NCBI GenBank assembly: GCA_003024785.1 | Contig: PUQB01000248.1 | Location: 62,001 to 126,000, forward strand | Reading direction: 5' to 3' | Origin: Selaginella tamariscina | Taxonomy: Eukaryota; Streptophyta; Lycopodiopsida; Selaginellales; Selaginellaceae | DNA length: 64,000 bases | Part shown: positions 4,903 through 45,342 of the stretch, piece after piece | How the letters are laid out: every line of letters begins with the position of its first letter | Numbering within the stretch: the first letter of the stretch is position 1 | Made by a program: the position numbers and the translations under genes | The notes under the pieces: generated by a model | Database searches by the model: none | The model's input: the letters and a program-made list of their open reading frames with translations, nothing else | What the model was told of the DNA's origin: nothing

Positions 4903-7900
4903 ATGGAGCCATTGTCCGACCAAGAGCTCTACGATCTGTCAAAAGGAAGCACTTTCTACCACATCTTTGTTAGCAACAGCAATGTAGTGGAAGTGAAATC
5001 AGCTGAGGATGTCGAGGATGCACTGTCCAAACACCAAACAGTAGTGCTCATGTTTGAAGAAACCCCAATCTCACGAATCTCGACAGCATTCCTCTCATAG
5101 TCAAGCACCTGACCTTAGACTACATAGTTGACAAGCACAACTGGTATGGTGATTTTATGTATGCATATGCACATAGGATGAAACATCTCGAGACACTCTG
5201 GATTGGGTATGTCCAAAATTTCAATTGGCTCCATGAGCTAGACAAGCTCAGATGTCTACGCATCGAGGTAAGTAAAGACGCTGCTCAGGCTTTTTTCACT
5301 GCACTAAGGGATTCAAAGTGTGTTATCGAGGAGCTTCAACTCAATAATATGTTCCTCAATCACAACTGGCCGGATAATGACGAGCTCCTGGATGCAATTG
5401 TGTCCATGACTTCTCTAAGGAGGCTCTGTATAGGAGAGATAGGGGTCGGGAAAGAGGTTTTGTTTAACCATCTCACCTCTCCACGGTGTAACATATACGA
5501 CCTGGAAATTCAAAGGGTGGCGAACAGTTACCCTGATCTGGCAAATGTTCTCAGGCATCCTGACTGTACATTGCGAATCTTAAGGGCTCGACACTGGGGC
5601 GAGAAAACTGAAGGGTACAGGCAATTTCTAGACGCCCTGAAATGTAGCAAACTGCAACATTTATCTTTATTCACTAGGGATGATGATTTTGTTGAAGGGT
5701 TGGAAACAACATTGCACAAGGATGATCTAAAGCTCACATCACTCTTCTTAGATACCTCTCATCGTCTTGATATGGAGTCGTTGCTCAGTTCCAAGTTGAC
5801 GCATCTCAGATTGTACATCTACTCCGGCCAGTTCTTGCTCGATAGCTCGCAACGTTTTGAGCGAGCTATATCGACTTCAAGGCTGAGACATCTTACTGTC
5901 AGTGGAACACATTTGGTGCCGCTTGGAGAACAACGGAAGCTTGTGGATTTCTTGAACAGGAATATCGATTGTCCATTGGTGACATTGGACCTTCATGAGT
6001 GGCAGTCTCAAGTGTTACACCAAAGCTGTTTGCAAATCTTGAAGCGGAACAAACTCTATCGAGAAGGAGGTCTTTTGGAAGGAGGCGTAACTGCACCTTC
6101 AAATGCTAAGCTTTTTATCTGCGGAGACACTGGAGTAGGGAAGACAACCATTAGGAAGAACCTTGCCAGAAGGGTTGGATCCCCAGCATTTTCCAGTCAT
6201 CAAAGTCGACTTATGGCATAGAGCTTCAAGCTTTATGCTTTACAGATAAGAAGTTGATTGTGTGTGACTTAGCTGGCCAATCTGAGTACCATACATTTCA
6301 TCACTACTTTGTAAGAGGCAGTGATAAAGATTTGTTTCTCCTCGTTTGTAGGGCTCCTACAGCTGCAGACGATCCAGCAGAGTTAGAAAAACAACTCAAA
6401 TACTGGCTGAGATTCATTGTTGCACATCGTTCCTTGTCCGACCAGAGGCCAAGAGTATTGATACTTCTCAATTACTTTCCCGCTAGCGAGAGGCCAAACA
6501 ATATCACAAGTACAACGATGAAAGGGCTCGCATTGATCCGATGTGGAGCAGTAATCCAAGAGTACTCGCAGTGCATTGACTTTGGGGATACAGAAAGCAT
6601 TAGTGTATATGGAATTGTGGCTAGAAAAATCAACCAAGTCAGACAACTCAAAGGAGCATTGGAGAGAGCCTTGGGAGGAGTGTTGGAGAAGAGACCAAAA
6701 GTTCCATCAGTTTGCAATCGCATCATGAATCAGTTGAATGCTACACAGCAACCCAAGGTGGTGTCACTTGAGAGAAGTTCAGGAACATGTACAACATGAG
6801 AAACTTCAAGGAAATCCGGTTTAAGGCATGTCTCATGCATCTTCACGATAGTGGAGAACTGGTCTACTTTGAAGATGACACACCAGACGAGACACAACAG
6901 TTTGTTGTCCTGGATGTTCAGTGGTTCTTGCGAGATGTTATTGGTGTTTTTCTGCCTCGGTTAGGAAGGAACTTGAATGACGCACGACCTCCGGCAGTGC
7001 AGCCCATCATGAGTGTTCGTGCAAAACTCGCAACCTGGTGTGAAGAAACTCACATTCCTTACATACTGTCTTCACTTCAGAAGCTAGGTGTGGTGCTACC
7101 AAACCAGGGGGAAACTCATGTTACGATCTTGCCTTTGTTGAAAGAAACTCTCCAGCAATGGCAGCAAGAACGTGGGAGGCCCGGGGTCAGCAGCTACTGT
7201 TTCTGGGGAAGGAGATTCGATTGCAAACACTCTGAGACAACAATTCTGCCATCTGGGATCTTCAACATGCTTCAAGTGACACTTGCAGGTATGTTTTCTC
7301 AACATAGGGTTGGACAAGGCTGGCTGTACCTGGTGGAGAACAGAATCCATGTGATTGTCAAGATTGGAGGCAGCAGAGGAGAATGGTATGATATGCATTG
7401 GGTCGATGTACTTGTTCGAATACCATTCGACTGTGAGACGTACCTACTGGAGCAAGCCGAGAACCTTTTCCAGCGCGTGAACCTGTGCATTGCTGAAGTT
7501 TGTGGAGCTCCGAACTGGGATGTCCTGCACTGGAACTGGAAGAGAAAGTCATCAGGCCGCAACGAATTGAGAGCAACTTAAGTTCAAGATTTGAGGATGT
7601 GTGCCCACTAGTCTCACTTGTTGAAGAGCTCAACATGGATGGTCGTACTTTGCTCTATGAACATACTTGGCCAAGTTTGCAGAGTAATCCAATCTATGAG
7701 CTCTTGTTGCCGAGTGAACGGGATAAATACTTTGCAGCACAGCAGGCAACCTGAATGTCATCGGGTTCAAGGTACAAGAGTGTTTAAATGCAACAACTAG
7801 TGACAGTGAGCATAGTACCACGGATGGTACCAGTGAGTTAACCATTGGTGTACTCAAACGGATGGAGTCCAACATAGTGAGGCAGATAAGAACTTCAGAA

Positions 7901-8518
7901 GCCAGGATAACAAGCGAGATTCACAGACTGGAGTTGGTTGTCAAGAAACAAGTGGATGTTGTACACATGCAATTAGGTGAGATTCTCTCTAAGCTCATGC
8001 TCCATATGGACTTTGAGGCACCTAAGTACCCATACATAACAGACGAGAACAACTTCCTCCAGAAGCTGTCTCAATCTGCATTCGGTTCAACTCTGAGACT
8101 TCATTTCTTATGTGAAAGCCACCAGCGTTGTCATCCAGTGGAGAACCAACGAGGTATTGAAATCACTGTAAGTCCGGAGTGGTTGAAGAAAGCAGCTCCA
8201 GTATTAGTTCCAGCACTCAGAATTATGTTCTTTGCACTCAAGGTGGTCGCCATTGCGCGGTTTGGTGTAGCCATTCCATCTCCGGCATCTGCATTTCCCA
8301 AGGGTCTCAAGGATGCAGAAATTCAAGCAGTAGTGGAGGCAGTGTTTGGCAACGTTGATAAACACCTCAAGTCTGGATTTCCCACGAGAGACGAGCTGAA
8401 AGAGTTTCATAAATCTCTTGATATGTTTTTGAAGGGAAGGGATCTGGAGCATGACTTGGGGTTACGTAGGAGAATACAGAATGGGCGACATGTTTGGCTG
8501 TGCCAACAACATCAATGA
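4903..8518 (+). pseudogene. LRR-Roc-COR (ROCO-type) GTPase gene, copy A
   Basis: This is the most complete of five copies here. From the ATG at 4903 it encodes an N-terminal block (MEPLSDQELYDLSKGS), ribonuclease-inhibitor-like leucine-rich repeats (about 5060-6000), a Roc GTPase domain with P-loop GDTGVGKTT (6123-6149) and switch II DLAGQ (6266-6280), a COR domain (about 6790-7560; KACLMHLHDSGELVYF), a helical segment (from about 7860) and a C-terminal block (ENQRGIEITVSPEWLKKAAP) resembling plant ROCO proteins. There is no kinase domain. The usual THxD-type G4 motif is replaced by LLNYFPAS. Against its sister copies the frame shifts by 1-2 nt near 5060, 6177, 6775, 7530 and 7745; otherwise frames are open. 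No introns are evident. In other organisms ROCO proteins signal as dimeric GTPases; the role here is unknown. Either a recent pseudogene or a gene with assembly indels. Confidence 0.8.
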
Positions 8519-19927: not shown

Positions 19928-19936
19928 CACTAAAAG
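19928..19936. repeat. Left target-site duplication of the MULE
   Basis: CACTAAAAG here is repeated exactly at 27808-27816. Nine bases is the usual Mutator-superfamily target duplication. Placing the boundary here also lines up the two terminal inverted repeats from their first bases (GAG). Confidence 0.75.
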
Positions 19937-20052
19937 GAGTCCCGACAAAAAGAGGGCTTCCGGGCTTGGACCCGGAATATTCTAAAGAATCTAGAATATT
20001 CTTAGAATATTCCTAAATATTCTTAGAATTTAGGATTTTGGCTCAGTCGGCA
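19937..20052. promoter_or_regulatory. Left terminal repeat with GAATATTC motifs and half-site
   Basis: The terminal inverted repeat (19937 to about 19960) is followed by three GAATATTC motifs (19975-19982, 19994-20001, 20005-20012) and then AGTCGGCA (20045-20052), a half-site of the internal palindrome array. GAANNTTC is the core of heat-shock elements. Here the spacing between the last two units is one base longer than ideal. A transposase or host-factor binding role is inferred. Confidence 0.6.
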
Positions 20053-20107
20053 ATTAACAACAAAAAATATTTAAATCATAGCCATGTTTATACTGTATTA
20101 TTAAAGT

Positions 20108-20113
20108 TTTATT
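20108..20113 (-). terminator. Polyadenylation signal of the ParB-methylase gene
   Basis: AATAAA on the minus strand lies about 30 nt past the stop codon at 20144, fitting the 3' end of that gene inside the transposon. Confidence 0.5.
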
Positions 20114-20143
20114 TCAACACCAAAGAGTACAATTCAACACTTG

Positions 20144-23100
20144 TCACTTCTTCTTACGATTGAGCAATGCTGCAATTCGTGAACCACCAGTCCTACTTGA
20201 CGTCGCTATTGGTTGGGTTGGGATTTCCTCTGGCTGGATGTTCTCTTTAATCCTGTTCATAGCAATTCTCCCGAGCTCAGGGTTCTTCTCAGTCCCAACA
20301 ATGTTTCTCCCCAGCTCGATAGCTGCAAGCATTGAGGACCCCGTACCACTGCCTATATCCCAGATAAGATCACCTGGCCGGGTGAGTCGTTCTATCACGA
20401 GCTGCATCAATCGAGTGCTCTTCGGTTGGTAGTCCATCCTGCATGTGAAGATAATGGTAAATACTTAAATTGTTGAAATGAAATGCCTACCATGGTTCTT
20501 GGAACCGCTCAGGATTATCAACAAGAATTGTTGATGACAAACGCAGTTATCGCGCAATCCTCTAGATGCATCTTGGAAGACAAGAAGGAGCAGGATGCTC
20601 TCCTGTTAAAACATCAAAAATCATTAATGAACTTCATGAATAAAGAAAAAAGTACCTTCATCTTGTTGCGGTAGCCCCAACCACGCCCTCTGTAGATGTA
20701 GTACGTTGCAGCAAGTTGAAGGTCCACCACACTTGCAGCTCGGACAACTTGATCCCAGGTGTTTGCTGCAGCAAACACAACCAACCAACCATTTGCAGCC
20801 ATATGCATACCTGCAAACTGGAGTGCTTCATCGAACTTCACTGGATCAAGGTAGAGGTATGGCGTATCACTCGTTGTATTTCCTGGCAAGGTCCCATTTG
20901 GAAGGTCGAAGATCACCAAGTTGAAACCATATTCTCCCGCAATATGCTGGTAGCGAGTCTGGCTGTCAGCTGTATGGTACCTGGCCACCTGTGTCTGAAC
21001 TTTTCTATAAGGAACCAGTCTAGCGTCAGGAACCTCCTCTTCCTTCTCATCCGTGAGCACGGCCTGTTGCATCTCCTCGATGTCATCAATCGCCAAGAAA
21101 TTATCACCTCGAGTTGTAGCAAGTGAAGGGACGAATGTGACCAAGTCATCCTTGATGTCCATGGTTCCCTGCGATGGTAGCACTTCAGATAAATTGAAGG
21201 CAGCTGGATCGCGAGTAGTGGAGGTGCCAGCTACTGTATCTGAGGTCTTCTTTGACTGCTGCACAGGCTGACGCCGCTTTGCCTTGGCCTTTGTCTTCTT
21301 AATGAAGTCGACCTCTGCCGGATCCCATGAGATGCATGGGAGATCTTTTGAGTGTTCATTGTAGAGATCCTTCTCCCATGTTGGTGGTTGCCCAGGTGGA
21401 TAATCAAGCCAGAACGGTACGTTACACGTCGAACTCTGTCAGGCCAGATCTTGTCTTCGACCACATGTGTGGTGCTTCCATGTAATCTGACCAGAATACC
21501 ATAGTCTGTGTGTGAGGCACCTTTCTCGCTGCGACATACCTGTAATGAACATATAGTAGTGTCAGAATGTAACAATGTCAAGAAGATCATCCTTACCTCC
21601 AAATCATCCTTCTTGCTGTCTCTTCGTGTTCGAGGAACTCTTTCGGCTCTATGGAGTAAGTGAACTTCACACACTCATGGAATGGCTGGAACATCACGTT
21701 CTTGCATTTTACCCGCACTTCATCGTACCAAGTCGTGAAATCTGTAACCGGCCTGCTCCACTCGCCATCCTCGATGAGTCCCGTGAGAATCTGTACTGCC
21801 TCCTCTCTGATTGCCGCCAATACAAATCGATAGTAAACCACCTTATCCACTCCTTATCCTGAACACCCGGCAATCCAAGTGTCTCTTGCTCTCTCTTCAG
21901 ATCGAGACGTACCAGTTTATTGAAGTACATGATTCTCGTCTCGTTTGGAATTCTCGCCCTTGAAAGCGCGTACAGCTTTTCCAACCCCATCCATCTGCAT
22001 TGTTTCCATGTGATTTGGGTCACCTTGTCGAACCACTCTTCACCCAATGCAGGATCGATGATGGCTAAGATCTTCATCATGCGCTTGTCATGCTTAATGT
22101 AGACCTGTTGTTGCTCCTGGTATTTGTTGCCTTTGGATGCCCTTGCAGCCTTCTCAAGATCATCCTCAATCTCACTCTGTAATTCACAGACGTAATCAAC
22201 TAAGTAATATAAGTGTGAGACGTGGTACCTCAAAAAAATCTTTGCACAGATCAAATTCGGAAGTGGATGCCAAGCTTGTTGTCCAGTTGCGCTTTCCTTC
22301 CACTTTCTTATGTCATCTCGTTCCTTGTCACTGAGCCTGGCCAAGATCTTCGCTGTGCCCTCCTCACTGGTGCAACATGTCTTCACAGATAGCAGAAGAT
22401 GTGGCAGTGTGGTTTGCACTGCCGTTGCGGAGGAACTGCATATTTGAAAATCTCGAAGTTAGTTAATCCTATGATCTAGAGGTCACTATGTTTACCTATT
22501 AATTTGCTGAAACATTGTCACAAGCTGAAGATTATCCATGACCCCAGCACGGATGAAGCCTGAACGCACTCTCACTGCCCACTGATTCTTATCTTCCGTG
22601 TCTTCTGTGTACAGCTTCTGAAGCACCTTTAGCCTGTGATTACCATCCCAACAGATGAACTTCTTCATCGAAAGCATTGGTGCCCATTGCCGGAACATGT
22701 CAGACTGAAGCTCCTCCTCAAAAGCCAAATGCTGAGCATACATCGCTTCATCGCTTCTCAATGCTGCCAGATCTGCATCTGTCATGGGGTCCCCAACTTG
22801 AAGGATGAACTGAGTGGTGTTGCGCAAATAACCAACTGCCTTCTTGAAACTCCTAGTCAAAGATTCCAGATCCGCTGGATTGACTCTCCGCACCTGCTCA
22901 TTTCCCAGAATTCGGCAAATAGGGACATCCGGTGCCTCTCCATATTCTCGGATTGTGATCTTCGCGAGAAGACGCACTGCACTCTCCGAATGCATGCTGG
23001 CTGCAATGTTGTAAACTTCCTCATTATCTGGCACTTCTGCTTTACCCTTCTTCTTCTTCTTAGCAGCCTCTGAATCTCCAGCAGCTTTGCGTCGTCTCTT

Positions 23101-23437
23101 CTTGTCTTGGGTTCATCCTCTTCGTCACTCGACAAAGTCACTGCGCATGAGGCTTGTGTGCCTTCTGTCTGCTCCTGTGTCTCCTGTGGTAAGACATCAT
23201 CCTCAACTTCTTCAACAAAGTCTGATTGTTCTTGTTGGGGTTGAACTACATCCTCTTGCTCTCCTGACCAGTCCTGCTGGCTTGCCTGTTCAACTGGAGC
23301 ATCACTTGAAGGTCCTTGTTCCTGAACCACAGCCAGCTTCCTACTTCCTCTCCCACGACCCCGACGCCCTCTCTCTGCTTCTGCTTCTCAGTAGGCTCCT
23401 TCATCTTCTTTTCTTGTAAACGTTGTGAAGAGCGCAT
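20144..23437 (-). CDS. ParB-domain / N4-N6 DNA methyltransferase fusion
   Basis: A spliced gene of about 1000 codons. Exons: 23437-22496, 22435-22229, 22176-21597, 21539-20656, 20602-20491, 20438-20144; the five introns are 52-60 nt with GT-AG ends. Exon 1 has an acidic/basic low-complexity leader, then a ParB/Srx-like domain with the signature CWDGNHRLKVL (near 22650). Exon 4 holds the methyltransferase front half: FDLPNG at the motif IV position, then NGWLVVFAA. Exon 6 holds motif I (WDIGSGTGSSMLAAIELGR, then GTEKNPE). Motif IV before motif I is the order of beta-type N4-cytosine/N6-adenine enzymes. ParB-methylase fusions are known from phages and bacteria. The [DN]PP[YFW] motif reads DLPN, so activity is uncertain. 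One-base shifts against the inferred reading occur near 23390, 23090, 22235 (T run), 21840, 21430 and 20520. A splice-acceptor-like TTTTGTAG just before the ATG leaves room for an earlier start. Confidence 0.75.
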
Positions 23438-23522
23438 CTACAAAAGCAATAAGGTTTAACAAAAAACTGTAATAAATGTTCAAAGATGTTTAATAAAAAT
23501 TAAAAAAACATACTAGCCCTCA

Positions 23523-23960
23523 CAGTCGGCGTGCCGACTGAGAGAGCAGTTGCTGTAAGTCCCAGTCGGCATGCCGACTGGGCCTGGCAACAAAGGGAGT
23601 CCCAGTCGGCATGCCGACTGGGCTGGCAACAAAGGGAGGCCCAGTCGGCATGCCGACTGGGCTGGCATCAAAGGGAGTCCCAGTCGGCATGCCGACTGGG
23701 CCTGGCAACAAAGGGAGGCCCAGTCGGCATGCCGACTGGGACTGGCAACAAAGGGAGGCCCAGTCTGGGACTGGGAACGAAGCAGGCCCAGTCAAAATGC
23801 TAGGTGGGACTAGAACAGTCAACCCTAGTCAAAATGCTGACTGGGGCTGGAACAGTCAACCCCGGTCAAAATGTTGACTGGATCTGGAACAGTCCACCCC
23901 AGTCGGCCTGCCGACTGGGACGGACAACGAAGTCAGTCCGAGTCGGCAGGCCGACTCGGA
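23523..23960. repeat. Array of ~12 palindromes (CCAGTCGGCATGCCGACTGG)
   Basis: Near-identical palindromes with core AGTCGGC-NN-GCCGACT start at 23523, 23561, 23601, 23640, 23679 and 23719. Four decayed units follow (about 23759, 23787, 23823, 23860), then two good ones with variant cores (23898, 23937). Period is 38-40 bp; spacers share a GGCAACAAAGGGAG-like sequence. The array sits between the divergent promoters of the methylase and transposase genes. Half-sites recur at 20045-20052 and at 27615-27673 near the transposon ends. Such dyads suit a dimeric DNA-binding protein, or a symmetric methylation target; the ParB-methylase is the obvious candidate (inference). Confidence 0.85.
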
Positions 23961-24438
23961 TTTCTTGCAACTGTGAAGAGATGTAAAAAGATGAACAGAT
24001 CATGAAAAGATCATGAGCAGATCATGAAGAAATCAGAAAATACTCACCCCCTCAATGGAAGCCTATTGTGATTAATCCCTGGAGCCACACTTGCTCCACG
24101 CTATGCCCCCAAATGAGCCCCTGCTCCACGAAAACCTAGCCGCCCTCTGCCCTAGCCGCCCTAATTGCAAAACCCTAGCCGCCCTAAATCAATTAAAAAC
24201 CAACCTAATTTCTGTAAACATATTGCATGCATGATCGCCACTTGTACATAGTAAAACTTTTTAATTTACAAAAAACCTACCCAGACGCAGTAAATTAATT
24301 TCACTCTTCTACCCTTAATATTATTTTTAATATTTGTCAATGAAATGATTGCCTCACGACTAACAAACACATTAACCATCGTGTGTAATATGTTCATTGT
24401 CTTTGAATTTTAACTTTTGTTTGTTCCATTTTTGCTAC
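23961..24438. promoter_or_regulatory. Transposase-side intergenic region
   Basis: About 480 bp between the palindrome array and the transposase ATG. It contains three copies of CCTAGCCGCCCT (24135, 24151, 24174) and an AT-rich stretch before the start. It presumably carries the transposase promoter. No further ORF is credible. Confidence 0.4.
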
Positions 24439-27400
24439 ATGGCAAGAATCAGCTACAATGGTGTTGACAAGGACTTCCCTGCAGATGAAGATGGTATTGC
24501 ATTTGTCTTTGAAACAGATCTCAGGTCTGCATTTGACATTCCACCTTGGCAATCTTTTAAAGTGCTGCATTTGATGTCTGTTGTTGGTGGAGATGCTGCG
24601 AATGTTGAGGTAGAACCAGAAGGGAGCAAGAGCTAGCAGTTTTGTGTATTACACACTTCTTCCTTCCAAAGGACCGCTATTCCGGTTGGAGACAACAGAT
24701 CGGGACAATTCTATGGTAACAATACTTCGCAATAGTCAGAGATGTAGGATTGGGAAGCAACTGGTGGTCTCGTCATCGATTCAGCAAGTTGCTGAGGTCC
24801 CAGAAGATTGCAACGGAAATGTGATTTACGAGTTGCCAGCACACGAAACAATGAAGGACAAGTACAAAGGGATGAATAGGAAGGATGGGTGTGATTACTG
24901 GACTCAACGCTGCACAACACATTGGAATGTTCCAGCTCGTGTTAGTCGCAGTTCATGTATTGGCCACATGAAATGCGTAAAGGAAACATGTCCGTTCATC
25001 AGCTTCAGTAAGAAAGCAAATGACTGCCAATTTAAGGGCACCATTGATAAAGTCCAGTTATCTTCAGATGGTAGAGTGCTTGGAATGAAGTGTGTGCATT
25101 GCAACAATGAGCCCCTTCTAGTGCAGACATGCTCCGTTGTTGCATATTACATAATTCCAGATGATATCACATGCACGAGGCTTTTCATCCATCTTGGAGA
25201 ACATCAACACCCACGTAGACCACCCGAATCCATGGTCTCTAAAGACAGAGCTAAGGAGACAATCAACAAAGCAGTCGCTGCAACCCCAAGAACTAATCAA
25301 CGTGTCATAGAGTTTCAAGCAGCACGCAATATAATTTTGGAAAAACTGGTAACAGATTCTGGAGATGTATCATACGACAAGGTTCTGTCAGATCTACTAC
25401 CACTCACAAATCACCGCCGGTAAGCAAAAAAATTATTATTTCCTTTTGGAGATGCTTAACCTTTCCATGTAGAACAAGAGAATGGATATCTCAGGCTAGA
25501 ACAAGAGACACTCGTTTCAAAGAAGGTTACGAAGGACTTCTGCAGTTAAAGAAGAAGCTATCAATCCCATTCATACATGTTATCCACATACCCGGAATGG
25601 ACCTCAACGGAGCTGAAGAGCAGCCTTTAATCTTCAAAATGACAGTTGCCGGCCCAGGATCCGGAATAGACTACATTAGAAGGTGTCAATCTGGAGGTGA
25701 TCTCGAACAGCAGTGGGTGGTGCTAGACCACACATATCGTATTGATGATTGGTGTACACTGGGAATACATCTCTATGATCCATTGTAAGTATTAACATAT
25801 CTATGTTTTAAAATACTTACTAATATAATGCACTTATGTTTGTGTAGTTTAAGGTCGATGGTGACACTTGCTTATGGTGACATGATCAGGGAGGATAGTG
25901 TGGCGGTGATCAAATTTTTGAACACTATGCTTCAAGTGTGCAGCAAGCAAGGACTTCATAATGTGAACTTTGCGGGGTTCATGTCAGATGAGTCAGGTGC
26001 AATTTGGTTAGCATTGCGTCAAGTTTTCAACAATGGGTCAAAGATGAGAGGAAGAGAAAGGAGTTGTTTGTTCCATTACATGCAGTCAGTGCGTCAAGTT
26101 ACAAAGAAGTGGATACTTGAGGAACACAGGGAGGAGCACATGAACCTTGCACGCTCATGGCCTGCAGCACTAACCAACCAAGATAAGTTGGAACGACGAG
26201 TAATGTTGGAGTCATTTTGGGAAGGCAGGTCCAGTAACGTTAGCGCTTTGCAAACATGGCTGTCATGGTGGGCAAGACATGAAGATCATATTTCCATGAC
26301 AGAGATAATTGACTTGACAGAAGATGGTGTTGCGAATGTGCCTACCACTAACAACTCCGAAGTTGTTCATGCAAGAGCACGAAGAGCAAGGCTGACGAAG
26401 CGTGTTCCTTTGTTGGAGGCAACAATGTTAGATTTAACAGATGCTGTTTTCCAAAGTGCAAAGGTCAAGGCATCATTTGAAGGGAGATATTCAGGCACAG
26501 GTCCTTCCATGGAAACTCTTCTGAAACGTGCACAGCAGAAACTTTCAGCGGGAAAATCAGTGTCTCCAACAACTTTTGCAAATCTTGTTAGTGATGAAGA
26601 GCATCTTGCAAGTCCAGAGTTTGCCTCTACAACAAATGTTCGTGTTCGAACCGTTCGTCAACCGTCAACTGGGGACCATGGGATTGATGCACTTCGTACA
26701 CATAGACATGACACACAATATGCAGAACAAGTCATCCCAAATGCACGCAGGAAAAAACTCAAGTTTCAAGATGTCAATGTCACTGAAAGAGAGACGTTGA
26801 TGACTCAGTGGGCCATCAGACGCATTGGGGAGGCAAGTCAGGTGAAATGTCTAGGTCTCACTCAGGACGGTAACAGCAAGTGTGGCAGACCCATAGGATA
26901 TCCACATCGTGTACCGGCACCAGGATTTCACGGTAGACGGCAATATACAAATGCATTTGGGAACATTGAGTTCACTCATCAGATGTTATGGTTCTGCCCA
27001 CGCGATTCTTGTTGCTTCAGACGACCATATGCAGGGATTCCTCCTGAGAGTATTCCAGAAGTTCCAGAGGTTTGGCCAGTTCAAAAAGGAACAAACTTGA
27101 ATGCAAATGAGGTTGAAGCTCTTCTGAAAGCAGGATTCAAGTTGGAGGGATTTGAAGAAATGGTAGACGACAGTAGTAGCCGAATGGATCGAACACCATC
27201 ACCACCAAGAGGAGAGGGAGCACATAGAGTACCAACATACCATGGACGGAGTGTGCGAACACCAACAAGAATGTCCAAGGAACATGAGAAACATTACAAC
27301 CAGGCAAAGATTCTTCAAGGTCGGATCAACAACGTGGAGGTGGTTCAAAGAGGGAAGACTGAGGCCTTCATTGTCTCTGCAGGCATGCAATCTGCTAAGG

Positions 27401-27612
27401 TAACAATTTCTACTGTTCCGTCATGCACTTGTGCAACTTTTCAGAAAGCCAAGAACTGGAGCCCCTGCCAACACATGTATTTTGTGTACACTCATGTTCT
27501 TGGATTGGACCCAACGATTACTTACTTCTTACAGAGGCGGACCCTTACTCCAGCAGAAGTGCATCGGTTATTGGTTGATTGCAAGCGCAATGTCGAACCT
27601 GCGACCTTTTAA
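24439..27612 (+). CDS. Mutator-like (MULE) transposase with SWIM finger
   Basis: Three exons (24439-25419, 25473-25784, 25848-27612) joined by GT-AG introns of 53 and 63 nt give about 1018 residues. Residues ~150-258 form a Cys/His-rich domain like the GCM/FLYWCH/WRKY group that binds transposon ends (CDYWTQRC through HLGEHQHP). A DDE-type core follows: D in VVLDHTYRI (~411), D in FMSDESGAIW (~479), CxxH in CLFHYMQ (~505), E in NNSEVVHAR (~603). A SWIM finger CTCATFQKAKNWSPCQH lies at ~958. This is the classic Mutator layout; it cuts and pastes the element via the terminal repeats. The ATG at 24439 is the nearest one in frame with MARISYNGVDKDF. One extra G in a GGG run near 24624 shifts frame; everything after it is open. 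It is divergent from the ParB-methylase gene. Confidence 0.85.
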
Positions 27613-27614
27613 GT

Positions 27615-27807
27615 AGTCGGTATAGTAAAGTCTAGTCGGCAAATAATTAGCGTTTTTCACTTGTTGGTCGGCATTTTATATTGAAAGTTAAAGATAATCT
27701 ACTTGGCAGAATATTCTAGAATATTCCGTTTATTTGACAGAATATTCCTGGATATTCGGGAATATGCGAAAAGCCCGTTGTACGAAGCCCGGTTTTTGCT
27801 AATCCTC
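27615..27807. promoter_or_regulatory. Right terminal region with heat-shock-type element
   Basis: Half-sites AGTCGG (27615), AGTCGGCA (27634) and GGTCGGCA (27666) are followed by GAATATTCTAGAATATTC at 27709-27726. That is four perfectly spaced alternating GAA/TTC units, the textbook heat-shock-factor site. Another GAATATTC starts at 27740, and the terminal inverted repeat ends at 27807. The layout mirrors the left end. Confidence 0.6.
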
Positions 27808-27816
27808 CACTAAAAG
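27808..27816. repeat. Right target-site duplication of the MULE
   Basis: Exact copy of CACTAAAAG at 19928-19936. Confidence 0.75.
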
Positions 27817-29112: not shown

Positions 29113-32100
29113 TGGTATCGGAGCAGGGTTAGAAAGATGGAGATGCTGCTACTGTCACATTCTCCAACGGCCGTTCCATTACCAATTTTGATGGTTCTGG
29201 AAATTTCTCAAGCTGGAGACGCCGAATAAAGCTCATCCTCAAAGGTGAGGGAGTTTGGGGCGTGGTCAATGGAGACGAGCTCAAACCAGAGCCGATGCTG
29301 GATACCAAAAGCTGGACACCTGGAGCCGGCGAGAGGATAAAGGCACGGCAACGATTGAATTAGCTGTGACGGAGAGTGTGTTGAACTACACCAACAAAGA
29401 TCTGTGGAAGAAGCTCTGCAACAAGCACAAGTTGCAGACTCATGTGCAGATTGGACACCTCTGCACAGAGATGGTCAATATGTGGTGGTCCGAATCTGAG
29501 AACCTTGACCAGTTCGTGGACAACATGAAGAACACGTACAGGCAGATTGAGGAGTCCGACAAAGACAACAAGCTTCCTTCTTCCCTCTAAAATTACTTCT
29601 TTCTTTGTTCTTTACTCAACTCTTTTCACTCCCTTCGAAGCAACTTGATGCAGGTTGAGAAGGTTCAACTTAGCCGTGCAATACTTGTCCCTAAGGAGGA
29701 GATAATCATGCAGAAGGATGTGGGAATTGGTAGCTCAAATTCTGATCAAGCCTTGTTTGCAGGAACTTCTAAGCAAATTGCAAGGAAGAAAAAGAACAAG
29801 GAAAAATCAGAAGGAGAGTTGAACACGTCCAAGCTGAAGGAGAATGGGAAGGATAAGAAAAAGAAAAATTGTGGTTACTGTAACAAAGCTAACCATGATG
29901 AGAATGAATGCAAATTGAAGATGAAACATCTTCAAAAGCAATTGGAGGAGATCAAGTCTAGGAAGTCATCAGCTAACTATGGATGCCTACTTGAGGAGGC
30001 TTGTGTTGCTGAGATCAAAATCGAAGTTTGCAACAACACAACGGTAAAAGGCTCTTTGTGATAGATTTGGTGCTACTACTCACCTGACTTGGCATAAGGA
30101 TCATTATGTAAGTATCGTGACTGTCTTGGCCAACATGCAGTTCAACTGGGAGACAATAGTGAGCATCATGTGCATGGAATCGGTGAAATCAGCATTCACA
30201 CATCTGAAGGGGATCTCACACTCGCTAGGGTAATGTTTGCTCCTTCCTTATGCAAAGATTTACTTTCTATTGCTAAAATAACTGATATGGATAATATGGT
30301 CGTTTTTAATAATATGACTTGTATTATCCAAAGAAAGTATTCTAACAACGTGGTTGCTGTAGCACCCAGGAAAGGAAATTTATACCATCTTAAGGACAAG
30401 GTGTCAACCAATTCCTTAATTCTTGCTTTAGTTGGCAAAGGTAGTTATGACCTTTGGCACAAGTGACTAGGTCATTGCTCAATTTTTGGGACTGAAAGTT
30501 TGAGACCAATGGTAAATGGTTTGAACATATCTAACGATTTGACTCTTTCTCCATGCGAGGCATGTGCTCTTGCAAGCATAATCGCCAACCATTCAAAACA
30601 ATCGGGAGTAGGGCACATGAACTGTTGGAGCTTGTCCATAGTGACGTAGTGGCCAATCTGTGTTCCATCTTTTAACAAGGCTAAGTATTTCCTAACCTTT
30701 ACAGATGATCTTAGTCGAAAAACTTGGGTTTATTTCTTGAAAACTAAATGTGAAGTTTGGATTGCTTTATAGAATGGAAAGCATTGGTGGAGAACCAAAC
30801 TGGTTGCCAAATCAAAAAGTTGAGGACTGATAATGGCGGTGAATTTGTGAATCGCAATTTCAATCAGCTATGTTCCACTTCTGGGATTCAACGCCAACTC
30901 ACCGAACCATATACACTCAACATAATGGGGTCGCAGAAAGAAAGAATTGTTCTATCGTGGAATAGCAAGATGTCTTCTTGTACATGCAAATGCTCCTGAG
31001 AAATTTTGGGCAAAAGCCGTAAGGTATGCAGTTTTCCTTCTTAACCATCGTCCCACTGTCGCAGTTAGAGGGAAAACTCTTGAAGAACGGTTTATGGGAA
31101 TTAAGCCTGACGTGGCTAATCTACGTATTTTTGGGTGTATTGCTTATCGACATATTCCCTCAGATCTACGTTCAAAATTTGAACCTTCTAGACAACGACT
31201 AATGTTTATAGGCATGTCAGAGACAAGTCCTCATGCTTACCGCTTGATGGATCCATCGACTAGCACTGTTCACATATGTAGGCAGGAAGAGGTACAATTT
31301 TTTGAGGAAACTTCTTATTTTGAGACAGCTTCTATTCCTGACCTTGATTTTTGTGACGTTTCCACGTGAGTGGCTCTAGAATGACAACATTCTTGATGCA
31401 GATGTTTGGAATGATTATCCTACTATAGAGTCTCTTGATCAAGGAGGAGCTGACTCAGTGATCCAAGCGGATAATGAACCAGCTGAATCCACGTCTCCAT
31501 CTCCAACGATAGTTGATCCTACACCAGCAATTGAGGAGCTAAGAAGAGGAAAGCGGATGAAAATTCCAAACAAGAAAGCCATTGAAAATGCAGAGTGCTC
31601 GTATGCTTTTACCTCTAATCTCTTGGAATTTTGTGCAGCTGCCTGTGTGCTAGAGCCAATCTCTTTTAAAGAGGCTATGGCTAGCTCGGATAATGTTCAT
31701 TGGAAGGAAGCGATGGATAGGGAGATTGACTCTATCACTCGCATGGGAACCTTTGAGGTAACGGTTTTACCAAAGGGAGCTTCAGCTCTTGGCTGCCGCT
31801 GGGTCTATAAGACTAAGTTGAATGCAGATGGCTCCATCAATTATCACAAAGCACGGCTTGTGGCATAGGGTTTCAAAACAGTATGGCGTTGACTATCTCG
31901 AGACTTACTCTCCAGTGGTAAAAATGATAAGCATTCGAATTTTACTTTCTTTTGCTGCTCATTTTGATCTTGAGATTCATCATACTGACATTAAAACAAC
32001 ATTTTTAAATGGAGATTTACTGGAAGAAGTTTATCTCCAACAGCCCGAAGGTTATGTTGTTCCTAGAAAGGAGCACCTTGTATGGAAACTCAAGAAAGCT

Positions 32101-33461: not shown

Positions 33462-35712
33462 GTGAATAAATAATTCTTTGGCCAGTGGCTTCGTGAAAAT
33501 GTCCGCAAGCTGCTGACGTGAAGAAATGTGTTCAACTTTCAACAATCCTGCTTTTACCAAATCTCGAACATAGTGATAATGCTTGGCAACATGTCGAGAC
33601 TTCCAGTGTGTTACCTCACTGTTACACCAATCGATAGCTCCTTTGTTGTCAACATGAAGCTTGATTGGTGATATTTCCTGGCCAAGAGCTCCAAGAAAAT
33701 CCTAAAACCAAAGAATTTCTCGTGAGGCAGCAGAGGCAGCAAGGTATTCTGCCTCTGTAGAAGAGAGAGCAACGTGTACTTGCTTCTTGCTGCTCCATAG
33801 AACTAGACTGCTTCCAAGCTGGAAACAAAATCCTATAGTGGACTTATAATTGTCACGATCATCTGCCAGGCTGCTGTCACTGTAGGCAGTTAACGTGAAC
33901 ATCTCCCTAGGTTGGTATAACACCCCATAACCAAGCGTCTGCTTTACATAACGCATCATCAATTTAACCATGTCCCAGTGCTTTCTACATGGATTAGCAG
34001 AAAACTAGCTAAGAGCAATGACCACGTAGGCTAAATCAGGGCGGCTACACACCATAGCATACATTAGACTTCCAAGTAGATTTTGAAACGGTACCTTTTG
34101 CATGGCTTGTTGCTCCTCCTTGCTGGAAGGACATTCAGCCTTGGTTAAGAACTTGATGTTACCAAGTTCCATAGGTACAAGAGATGGATTGCAATCAGCA
34201 TTGCCATATGTCTCAAGTACTTTGGTCAAGTACTATTGTTGAGATACATGAAGTAGACGTCGTTTCCTATCACGGTAAATCTCCAATCCTAGAAAATACC
34301 GTGCTTCCCCAAGATCCTCCATAGCAAAAACCTTTCCAAGTTTTGCCTTAAAACACTTTAAATAATCAATGCTATTGCAAATCAAAAGTGAATCATCTAC
34401 GTAAAGAGCAACTATAAGTAAAAACTTTCCTTCCCTTTTAATATAGACGTTGGATTCTGAAGAAATGGGTGTGAAATCGTCCACTTTGAAAAATGCATCA
34501 ATTTTCTGTCACCAAGCTCGCGATGCTTGCTTAAGCCCATAAAGAGCTTTCTTGATTTTCCATACAAGGTGCTCCTTTCCAGGAACAACATAACCTTCGG
34601 GCTGTTGAGATAAACTTCTTCCAGTAAATCTCCATTTAAAAATGTTGTTTTAATGTCAGTATGATGAATCTCAAGATCAAAAATGAGCAGCAAAGAAAGT
34701 AAAATTCGAATGCTTATCATTTTTACCACTGAAGAGTAAGTCTCGAGATAGTCAACGCCATACTGTTGTTTGAAACCCTATGCCACAAGCCGTGCTTTGT
34801 GATAATTGATGGAGCCATCTGCATTCAACTTAGTCTTATAGACCCAGCGGCAGCCAAGAGCTGAAGCTCCCTTTGGTAAAACCGTTACCTCAAAGGTTCC
34901 CATGCGAGTGATAGAGTCAATCTCCCTATCCATCGCTTCCTTCCAATGAACATTATCCGAGCTAGCCATAGCCTCTTTAAAAGAGATTGGCTCTAGCACA
35001 CAGGCAGCTGCACAAAATTCCAAGAGATTAGAGGTAAAAGCATACGAGCACTCTGCATTTTCAATGGCTTTCTTGTTTGGAATTTTCATCCGCTTTCCTC
35101 TTCTTAGCTCCTCAATTGCTGGTGTAGGATCAACTATCGTTGGAGATGGAGACGTGGATTTAGCTGGTTCATTATCAGCTTGGATCACTGAGTCAGCTCC
35201 TCCTTGATCAAGAGACTCTATAGTAGGATAATCATTCCAAACATCTGCATCAAGAATGTTGTTGTCATTCTAGAGCCACTCACGTGGAAACGTCACAAAA
35301 ATCAAGGTCAGGAATAGAAGCTGTCTCAAAATAAGAAGTTTCCTCAAAAAATTGTACCTCTTCCTGCCTACATATGTGAACAGTGCTAGTCAATGGATCC
35401 ATCAAGCGGTAAGCATGAGGACTTGTCTCTGACATGCCTATAAACATTAGTCATTGTCCAGAAGGTTCAAATTTTGAACGTAGATCTGAGGGAATATGTC
35501 GATAAGCAATACACCCAAAAATACGTAGATTAGCCACGTCAGGCTTAATTCCCATAAACCGTTCTTCAGGAGTTTTCCCTCTAACTGCGACAGTGGGACG
35601 ATGGTTAAGAAGGAAAACTGCATACCTTACGGCTTTTGCCCAAAATTTCTCAGGAGCATTTGCATGTACAAGAAGACATCTTGCTATATCCACGATAGAA
35701 CGATTCTTTCTT

Positions 35713-42894: not shown

Positions 42895-44245
42895 TTCTTT
42901 CTGCGACCCCATTATGTTGAGGTGTATATGGTTCGGTGAGTTGGCGTTGAATCCCAGAAGTGGAAACATAACTAATTGAAATTGCGATTCACAAATTCAC
43001 CGCCATTATCAGTCCTCAACTTTTTGATCCGGCAACCAGTTTGGTTCTCCACCAATGCTTTTCATTCTATAAAGCAATCCAAAACTTCAAATTTAGTTTC
43101 AAGAAATAAACCCAAGTTTTTCGACTAAGATCATCTGTAAAGGTTGGGAAATACTTAGCCTTGTTAAAAATGGAACACGGATTGGGCCACAGACGTCAGT
43201 ATGGACAAGCTCCAACAGTTCATGTGCCCTACTCCCGATTGTTTTGAATGGTTGGCGATGATGCTTGCCAAGAGCACATGCCTCACATGGAGAAAAGTCA
43301 AATCGTTAGATACGTTCAACCATTTACCATTGGTCTCAAACTTTCAATCCCGAAAATTGAGCAATGACCTAGTCGCTTGTGCCAAAGGTCACAACTACCT
43401 TGCCAACTAAAGCAGAATTAAGGAATTGGTTGACACTTTGTCCTTAAGATGGTACAAATTTCCTTTCCTGGGTGCTACGGCAACCACGTTGTAGAATACT
43501 TCTTTGAATAATACAAGTTATATCGTTAAAAACGACCGTATTATCCATATCAGTTATTTTAGCAACAAAAAGTAAATCTTTGTGTAAGGAAGGAGCAAAC
43601 ATTACCCAGCGAGTGTGAGATCCCTTCAGATGTGTGAATGCTGATTTCACCGATTCCAATGCATGTGATGCTCACATTGTCTCCCAGTTGAACTGCATGT
43701 TGGCCAAGACAGTCACGATACTTAACATAATGACCCTTATGCCAAGTCAGGTGAGTAGTAGCACCAAGAATCTATCACAAAAGAGCCTTTTACCATTGTG
43801 TTGTTGCAAGTTTTGATTTTGATCTCAACAACACAAGCCTCCTCAAGTAGGCATCCATAGTTAGCTGATGACTTCCTAGACTTGATCTCCTCCAAAATTA
43901 CTTCTTTCTTCGTTTTTTACCCAACTCTTTTCACTCCCTTTGAAGCAACTCATGCAGGTTGAGAAGGTTTAACTTAGCCGTGCAATACTTGCCGTTAAGG
44001 AGGAGATAATCATGCAAAGATGTGCGAATTGGCAGCTCAAATTCTGATCAAGCCTTGTTTGCAGGAACTTCTAACAAATTGCAAGGCAGAAAAAGAACAA
44101 GGGAAAATCAGAAGGAGAGTTGAACACGTCCAAGCTGAAGGAGAATGGGAAGGATAAGAAAAAGAAAAATTATGGTTACTGTAACAAAGGTAACCATGAT
44201 GAGAGTGAATGCAGATTGAAGATGAAATATTGAATAAATAATTCT

Positions 44246-45342
44246 GCTTGCAAATCTTGAAGCGGAACAAAATCTATCAAGAAGGAGGTCTTTTGGACGA
44301 GTCACCTTCAAATGCTAAGATTTTCATATGTGGAGACACTGGAGTTGGGAAGACAACTATTCGGAAGAACCTTACCAGAAGGGTTGGGATCCCCAGCATT
44401 TTCCAGTCATCAAAGTCGACTTATGGAATAAAGCTTCAAGCTTTATGCTTTACACATAAGAAGTTGATCGTGTGTGACTTAGCTGGCCAATCTGAGTACC
44501 ATGCATTTCATCATTACTTTGTAAGAGGCATCAAATACTGGCTGAGATTCATTGTTGCACATCGTTCCTTGTCCGACCAGAGGCCAAGAGTATTGAAACT
44601 TCTCAATTACTTTCCCGCTAGCCAGAGACCCACAAGGACAACGATGAAAGAATTCGCATGGATCCGATGTAGAGCCGTAATCCAAGAGTACTCACAGTGC
44701 ATTGACTTTGGAGATACAGAAAGCATTAGTGTATATGGAATTGTGGCTAACAAAGGAGAATTGGAAAAAGCCTTGGAAGGAGTGTTGGAGAAGAGACCAA
44801 AAGTTCCATCAGTTTGCAATCACATCATGAATCAGTTGAATGCTACACAGCAACCCAAGGTGGTGTCACTTGAGATGTTTAGGGACATGTACAACATGAG
44901 AAACTTGGAGGACAATCGGTTTAAGGCATGTCTCATGCATCTTCACGATAGTGGAGAACTGGTCTACTTGAAGATGACACCAGACGAGACACAACAGTTG
45001 TTATCCTGGATGTTCAGTGGTTCTTGCAAGATGTTATTGGTCTTTTTCTGCCTCGGTTAGGAAGGAACTCGAATGACCCACGACCTCTGGCAGTGTATTC
45101 CATCACGAGTGTTCTCGCAACCAGGTGTGAAGAAAGTCACATTCCTTACATACTGTCTTCACTTCAGAAGCTAGGTGTGGTGCTACTAAACCAGGAGGAA
45201 ACTCAAGTTAGGATCTTGCCTTTGTTGAAAGAAACTCTCCAGCAATGGGAGCAAGAACGTGGGAGGCCCGAGTTCAGCAGTTACTGTTTCTGGGGAAGGA
45301 GATTCGATTGCAAACACTCTGAGACAACAATTCTGCTTGTAC
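44246..45342 (+). pseudogene. LRR-Roc-COR gene, copy B, 3' part
   Basis: Resumes copy B right after the LTR stack at CTGCTTGCAAATCTTGAAG. It encodes the Roc domain (P-loop GDTGVGKTT, near 44331; DLAGQ, near 44476) and COR (KACLMHLHDSGELVY). It keeps the base missing from copy A after the P-loop, so 44248-45060 is one open frame, but it lacks a stretch of Roc (SDKDLFLLVCRAPT in copy A). It ends abruptly at ACAACAATTCTG, where the inverted-arm element begins, so the C-terminal third is absent. Confidence 0.8.

Follow-up and report, generated by a model that had tools for sequence, protein, structure and literature searches.

Accessory proteins that combine a ParB-like region with an amino-methyltransferase are already in print for algal transposons. 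The Ectocarpus transposon Sola1-1_Ec32 encodes a 1104-amino acid (aa) accessory protein with ParB-like and N4/N6 methylase domains; its authors propose self-binding and self-modification and cite cases from green and red algal transposons (Iyer 2011, Petroll 2025) (PMC12477816). VANC of the Arabidopsis element VANDAL21 binds a short motif, the targets of which are often tandem and vary in number between related elements, and causes loss of DNA methylation (PMC5735166). The ParB-CTPase fold is also found fused to an N6_N4 methylase in phages and prophages (PMC12704722). Bdelloid rotifers possess N4CMT, a horizontally transferred gene with the motif SPPY, which the passages on it name as an amino-methylase motif together with DPPY, NPPY, DPPY/F and DPPW (PMC8885841). 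Here we describe an element in the lycophyte Selaginella tamariscina that resembles a Mutator-like element (MULE) and carries a gene of this general type. It lies at positions 19937-27807 of a 64,000-nucleotide stretch (the window; contig PUQB01000248.1, our C558:62001-126000). The genome assembly of this plant has been described as 300.73 Mb, generated with PacBio/Falcon (PMC8558194); all searches of its own genome were made against a 300,702,823-base assembly.

Analysis of the locus confirmed a DNA transposon with two divergent genes (Table 1). The 9-bp target duplication proposed in the initial annotation was found as CACTAAAAG on both sides of the element. Inverted ends had also been proposed; the ends do recur in other copies, but as a terminal inverted repeat they are weak, because a repeat search of the window did not return the two ends as an inverted pair. 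Read inwards, the ends of the window copy are GAGTCCCGACAAAAAGAGGGCTTC and GAGGATTAGCAAAAACCGGGCTTC, identical at 16 of 24 places when counted by eye. When the joined flanks were used as query against the genome, a related site that passes through the junction without the element was identified at C744:141915-142129 (87% identity over query positions 29-260), with a single CACTAAAAG target copy and a 16-base gap immediately left of the target. A second paralogous site without the element was identified at C152:30267-30481 (87% over query positions 29-260). The paralogous empty sites suggest that the segment around the insertion is itself duplicated.

Table 1. Coordinates of the element and its features in the window
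Feature	Position	Strand	Remarks
Transposon, window copy	19937..27807	no strand	7871 bp; target duplication, recurring ends, related site without the element
Left target site duplication	19928..19936		9 bp, CACTAAAAG
Right target site duplication	27808..27816		CACTAAAAG
Left terminal/subterminal region	19937..20052	+	GAGTCCCGACAAAAAG end, AATATTC-rich repeats, CAGTCGGCA site at 20044-20052
Right subterminal/terminal region	27615..27807	+	AGTCGGC at 27634, GTCGGC at 27667, end ...GGTTTTTGCTAATCCTC
Accessory gene, 6 predicted exons	20144..23437	-	ParB-like motif region plus amino-methyltransferase
Accessory-gene exons (predicted)	23437-22496, 22435-22229, 22174-21597, 21539-20656, 20602-20491, 20438-20144	-	
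ParB-like motif region	22492..23016	-	VPICR ... RRVNP ... WDGNHRL; motif-level assignment only
Last methylase exon	20144..20438	-	S-adenosylmethionine (SAM)-binding motif DIGSGTGS; N6_N4_Mtase profile match
Intergenic tandem array	23518..23960	no strand	8 palindromes AGTCGGCNNGCCGACT, none in shuffles
Transposase gene, 3 predicted exons	24439..27612	+	24439-25419, 25473-25784, 25848-27612

The element belongs to a family, hereafter family A, that is present in many copies. A 301-bp left end used as query gave 225 first-look candidates, the right end 217 and a 701-bp piece of the methylase gene 223; the best 40 candidates of each search were scored and were 96-100% identical to the query. A 701-bp piece of the transposase gene gave 668 first-look candidates, and the best 40 scored were all 100% identical. 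Judged from these matches, approximately 220 candidate loci of the genome appear to have the element's ends in common. Twenty copies were fetched and examined together with the window copy (n = 21), and both ends were located by script in 17 of them. An exact 9-bp duplication was present at the predicted place in 13 of these 17 scored copies. In L010 and L011 the duplication matched at 8 of 9 positions and was exact after a one-base shift, in L016 at 7 of 9 and in L024 at 3 of 9. The duplication was not scorable by script in the other four copies (L015, L019, L020 and L022); by eye, GTGACAGTG stands on either side of the element in L015. Two pairs of copies, L009/L013 and L010/L011, have common flanks, which leaves 15 distinct sites, 12 of them exact. 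In each pair, the two members come from different contigs and have flanks and duplication in common; the assembly may for this reason contain allelic or duplicated contigs that inflate the copy counts. Few substitutions separate the copies. On the methylase side, 20 of 21 alignments have 0-24 per ~3.5 kb (81 in L026); on the transposase side, 19 of 21 have 0-28 (123 in L019 and 237 in L022, where the excised segments span rearrangements). Family A has therefore been amplified recently, as a burst.

The two genes were found to occur together between the same ends and 9-bp duplications within the plant's own genome. At least 31 of the 40 best transposase matches had a methylase match at the expected distance and orientation, and the left end was correctly placed in three of the other nine (C561, C450 and C440). 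An N6_N4_Mtase exon was identified just inside at least 26 of the 40 best left ends, and at least 16 of the 40 best methylase matches were paired with a transposase match, among the matches listed. With ends, duplications and gene pair all recurring, the view taken in the initial annotation of a eukaryotic transposon family with an amino-methyltransferase as a regular component is borne out. A host gene and a single odd insertion were considered and rejected on the evidence presented here, which for the host gene covers the best 150 of 739 methylase candidates in the genome. One related locus (L040, contig C531, 65-7503) is a palindromic derivative in which two inverted methylase halves surround a short centre and each side carries a left end; it gave no match to the transposase, and a 9-bp duplication was not recognized in the flanking DNA.

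Both genes contain introns, as had been claimed, with six and three exons predicted in the majority sequence of the 21 copies. Splice sites were taken from the DNA, and the acceptor of methylase exon 3 is uncertain. The majority sequence of the methylase gene encodes 1014 aa, given one exon 3 length found in 5 of 16 copies inspected there, and that of the transposase gene encodes 1018 aa; the intact proteins are thus majority readings across copies. The window copy has both frames broken, that of the methylase by small indels. Frame differences among copies were mostly small indels, representing either assembly errors in repeats or decay. The idea that these indels are basecalling traces of base modification was considered and dropped. 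Deletions of 1-4 bases, varying in size and due either to real change or to misassembly, were seen at one place in methylase exon 5 (window position ~20545) in 6 of the 21 copies.

The proposed fusion of ParB with an N4/N6 methyltransferase held for its methyltransferase part. The Pfam profile N6_N4_Mtase (PF01555) matched the C-terminal part of the protein with 39.6 bits (cut-off 26.7; E = 7.5e-10), over positions 165-220 of 221. Further matches were obtained to DNA methyltransferases among the PHROGs (best 1e-11) and to MboIIA among the PDB profiles (5e-4), and the SAM-binding motif reads DIGSGTGS. The ParB label, by comparison, is a motif-level assignment. The series VPICR...RRVNP...WDGNHRL resembles the box I/box II pattern of ParB/Srx proteins, with WDGNHRL as a candidate for the nucleotide-binding motif of box II (G-x-x-R type). 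A single-sequence AlphaFold2 model of the ParB-like exon had a predicted local distance difference test score of 49 and was unusable for a fold search. Methylase residues 140-1014 gave nothing at E 1e-3 in a large protein set (7994 candidates sharing most words scored), residues 770-1012 gave nothing at E 10 in the same set, and no methylase relatives were found in the viral contigs searched. Neither DUF1985 nor DUF287, the domains of VANC, was matched when residues 147-1014 were scanned against Pfam in two parts. Searching phages by tblastn gave 325 matching records, the best 8 of which cover 9-17% of the protein at 24-36% identity, with none covering 80%; these were set aside as generic methylase similarity. 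Within the genome, N6_N4_Mtase gave 739 first-look candidates. The best 150 were scored; all exceeded the cut-off, none exceeded 41.6 bits, and nearly all lay at the same C-terminal exon. Among these 150 no ordinary stand-alone gene or donor of the family stands out, and the stand-alone host gene that the initial annotation had considered was not seen.

The transposase carries the motifs WVVLDHTYR (D412), GFMSDESG (D478), CLFH (504) and TTNNSE (E602), a spacing read by eye as D-65-D-C2H-123-E. These are followed by a C-terminal SWIM-like CxC...CxH, for which the SWIM profile gave E = 0.016, below its cut-off. In MULE transposases, a C2H stands between the second D and the E of the D-D-E triad and a SWIM finger is present; by eye, the motif order agrees with that in L044, a canonical MULE transposase encoded in this genome. 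No protein in the large set matched the 1018-aa transposase at E 1e-3. The length of the duplication, 9 bp, lies inside the 8-11 bp range of MULEs (exact in 13 of 17 copies, and found in a related family as well; see below). Based on the duplication, the eye-read D-D-C2H-E-SWIM pattern and the sub-threshold SWIM match, the transposase is best called MULE-like.

The two genes are separated by a tandem array with units of ~40 bp, in which eight 16-bp palindromes AGTCGGCNNGCCGACT were identified. The 20 fetched copies contain 3 to 11 palindromes each, with constant arms and a variable centre; across all 21 copies, the centre was AT in 87 cases, GT in 20, AG in 20, CT in 19 and TT in 1. The 64-kb window has 13 instances of CAGTCGGCA, compared with 0.14 expected, and all lie within the element. 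Counting both orientations, AGTCGGC has 18 instances, again all within the element. Of the shorter GTCGGC/GCCGAC, 16 instances lie within the array, one near the left end and two near the right end; the other 6,528 bp of the element have none, and the window outside the element has 3. A candidate target motif in variable tandem number within the element's own non-coding DNA, a feature like that of VANC-bearing elements, is present.

A second family (B; L029-L033 and L036-L039, of which L037-L039 are longer cuts of three places already in the set) was found among the N6_N4_Mtase matches in the genome. Its methylase is 50-55% identical to that of family A over 475-862 codons (L029, L037, L038 and L039), falling to 38% in the damaged L033, and the last methylase exon is 70-71% identical (L037 and L039). 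WDGNHRL is identical between family A and the family-B locus aligned. The two loci that have a transposase (L038 and L039) encode one 55% and 63% identical to that of family A; for L038, the methylase is 55% identical over 830 codons and the transposase 55% over 950. The surplus of transposase candidates noted above (668) probably represents family B, because its transposase DNA is ~70% identical over the piece used as query. The divergent gene order is retained in L039. L038 (contig C516, 960-8674) is a 7.7-kb element in which an internal inversion has fused the methylase with part of the transposase. It has its own 9-bp duplication, GCTGGGAAT, the one such case in three family-B loci checked; for L037 and L039 the second duplication lies outside the fetched stretch. 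The family-B end GAGTGCCGCCATTTTGGAGG resembles the family-A end GAGTCCCGACAAAAAGAGGG. Since the same gene pair occurs in family B, the methylase probably predates the split between the families.

The motif was also identified in family B. GTCGGC/GCCGAC half-sites lie between the genes in L038 (8) and L039 (12), the two loci holding that stretch, and TTGCCGACTGAG stands at the subterminal place of family A in 5 of 6 aligned family-B ends, the sixth (L033) having TTGCCGACTGGG. Because the motif is kept while its surroundings diverge, these comparisons point to a protein of the element, the ParB-like methylase or else the transposase, as the factor that recognizes it.

Both genes are under purifying selection. 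Within family A, nonsynonymous and synonymous substitutions numbered 76 and 49 in the methylase (ratio 1.55) and 45 and 30 in the transposase (1.50), compared with ratios of 3.6 and 3.5 expected from opportunity; these counts come from 18 of the 21 copies (L019, L022 and L026 dropped) and are uncorrected for transition bias. There were no stop-making substitutions in the methylase and one in the transposase. Between L038 and family A, the proportion of synonymous differences (pS) is saturated (0.83 for the methylase and 0.78 for the transposase) while that of nonsynonymous differences (pN) is 0.302 and 0.315, respectively; the methylase and transposase have therefore been constrained and have diverged together. 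In the methylase domain, pN was 0.301 for L038 and 0.303 for L037, and the L038 value lies inside the range of the other segments of that locus (0.265-0.350).

The anatomy of the element fits a VANC-type accessory DNA-binding protein, directed to its own family by short tandem motifs in the common promoter region and the ends, and on this ground we prefer, at a little under an even chance, a role for the accessory protein as a sequence-directed self-marking or anti-silencing factor. The ParB-like protein would be brought to the element's own DNA via the CAGTCGGCA array. The delivered protein might then methylate adenine or cytosine amino groups nearby; alternatively, occupancy of the array might shield the promoter and ends from the silencing 5-methylcytosine (5mC) of the host. 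Copies would remain expressed and mobile, and the action would be VANC-like in effect, with an unrelated protein. Binding, methylation and anti-silencing are inferences. A fuller version, in which the element is a self-marking plant transposon whose methylase loads on the CAGTCGGCA array in a parS-like arrangement, spreads, adds N6-methyladenine (6mA) or N4-methylcytosine (4mC) via a non-canonical DLPN active site and blocks 5mC silencing at the promoter and ends, is doubtful as a whole. On this reading, the protein and its motif were retained in both families as their non-coding DNA diverged.

Several observations weigh against a self-marking or anti-silencing role. A fully open methylase frame was found in none of the 21 single copies and an open transposase frame in three (L012, L020 and L021). 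At the place of motif IV (YGFNLVIFDLPN) both families have DLPN and not (D/N/S)PP(Y/F/W), and because of this replacement catalysis by the methylase is doubtful. The ParB-like region matched nothing relevant in Pfam, NCBIfam, PHROGs or the PDB profiles. The tight palindrome was absent from the family-B intergenic region in L038 and L039, and the transposase itself is an equally good candidate for binding the motif. The methylase-domain pN was higher in L039 (0.385) and L029 (0.389), partly through frame damage, as the tblastn alignments of both loci span damaged frames. It is conceivable, if somewhat unlikely, that the methylase fold is catalytically dead and that the protein is a DNA-binding helper of transcription or transposition only, like TNPA of En/Spm and MURB of MuDR. 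For binding, the array of motifs could suffice; DLPN replaces DPPY in both families, and the rotifer N4C methylase loses its activity when the Ser and Tyr of its SPPY motif are replaced by Ala (PMC8885841). A dead enzyme is harder to reconcile with the retention of DIGSGTGS, with the conservation of the last exon between families and with a methylase-domain pN in L038 no higher than that of its other segments, yet the values for L039 and L029 blunt this last point. Another proposal is that the methylase times transposition: both strands would be marked, the transposase would prefer hemimethylated, just-replicated DNA, and new and old copies would be told apart. Dam and IS10 are a precedent for transposition timed in this way. 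Copies of the motif are placed close to each end and in the intergenic region, which is where timing would be exerted, but a base motif for methylation and methylation itself are both hypothetical here, and we regard timing as quite improbable. MULEs are known to capture genes, and a host or foreign gene carried as passive, Pack-MULE-style cargo would agree with the lack of any copy with a fully open methylase. Against this, the methylase is under purifying selection as the transposase is, within and between families, it is present in two families, and no donor stood out among the genome candidates scored; passive cargo is disfavoured and, in our estimate, very improbable.

The assignment to Mutator is likewise open to a rival, in which the element belongs to another superfamily and its 9-bp duplication is convergent. 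The initial annotation had named a MULE transposase, and the duplication, the eye-read motifs and the sub-threshold SWIM match agree with that, but the Pfam MULE profile (PF10551) did not match the whole transposase or its DDE segment up to E 10, and a genome scan with this profile gave none on contig C558 among the 148 matches listed. Comparison with the canonical MULE transposase L044 by blastp (E = 5.6) and hhalign gave no usable alignment, and the weakness of the inverted ends adds to the case for a different superfamily. Against such a placement stand the 9-bp duplications, the D-65-D-C2H-123-E spacing, the SWIM-like finger and the L044-like motif order, and we consider it unlikely.

The remainder of the window was also inspected. 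Roc and COR-A matches beside weak leucine-rich repeat (LRR) and P-loop matches were found at 5058-8515 and 44242-45057, of which Roc at 44242-45057 (34.1 bits) was above its cut-off and the remaining domain matches were below theirs; these regions probably belong to a ROCO-type LRR gene family. Copia-type reverse transcriptase fragments of equal sub-threshold score lie ~3 kb apart at 31380-31865 (+ strand) and 34781-35269 (- strand). Elsewhere in the genome, a G+C-rich stretch of odd composition (L042, contig C908:137911-138201) gave a weak RuBisCO match inside a reported 48,820-aa open frame. One complete gene for the RuBisCO large subunit was also identified in the genome, and its best PDB matches appear to be land-plant enzymes.

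If the fuller self-marking version is correct, the element would give a vascular plant a second DNA-marking system, owned by a transposon and addressed by sequence. The existence of genuine, enzyme-made 6mA or 4mC in land plants is disputed; the element is a concrete candidate writer of these marks, with a candidate target and many near-identical recent copies. As the genome was probably sequenced by PacBio, single-molecule kinetics may already exist. The initial annotation knew of no described MULE with this cargo. A search of titles and abstract beginnings, which left most subscription papers outside and in which Iyer 2011 and Petroll 2025 did not surface, found no MULE-like or land-plant transposon with a ParB-methylase and no target array with such a gene. 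The novelty of the cargo is thus partial: the accessory gene and the idea of self-marking have already been published for algal transposons, and what appears new is the MULE-like, vascular-plant setting and the CAGTCGGCA target array, for which a prior description is possible.

Like Sola1-1_Ec32, the element encodes a protein of similar size and domain layout on the strand opposite the transposase; by description, the two differ in that Sola1-1_Ec32 is a 21.5-kb Sola element of a brown alga and the present one a 7.9-kb MULE-like element with 9-bp duplications in a vascular plant (PMC12477816). The passage on Sola1-1_Ec32 makes no mention of a target array, co-divergence or a selection test (PMC12477816). 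With the present element, ParB-methylase accessory genes would be extended from algal transposons to a vascular plant and to a MULE-like transposon. The element has the same domain pair as the phage and prophage ParB-methylase fusions, if the ParB label is correct, but those are prokaryotic (PMC12704722). With N4CMT it has in common a bacterial-type amino-methylase in a eukaryote, but N4CMT is not described as transposon cargo in the passages concerned (PMC8885841). The likeness to VANC of VANDAL21 is one of arrangement, namely an accessory gene of a plant MULE and a variable tandem motif in non-coding sequence, the region upstream of the transposase included; VANC differs in having DUF1985/DUF287, in recognizing YAGTATTAY and in lowering DNA methylation (PMC5735166). 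The element also suggests a convergence among unrelated plant transposons, each with an accessory protein directed to short tandem motifs within its non-coding DNA.

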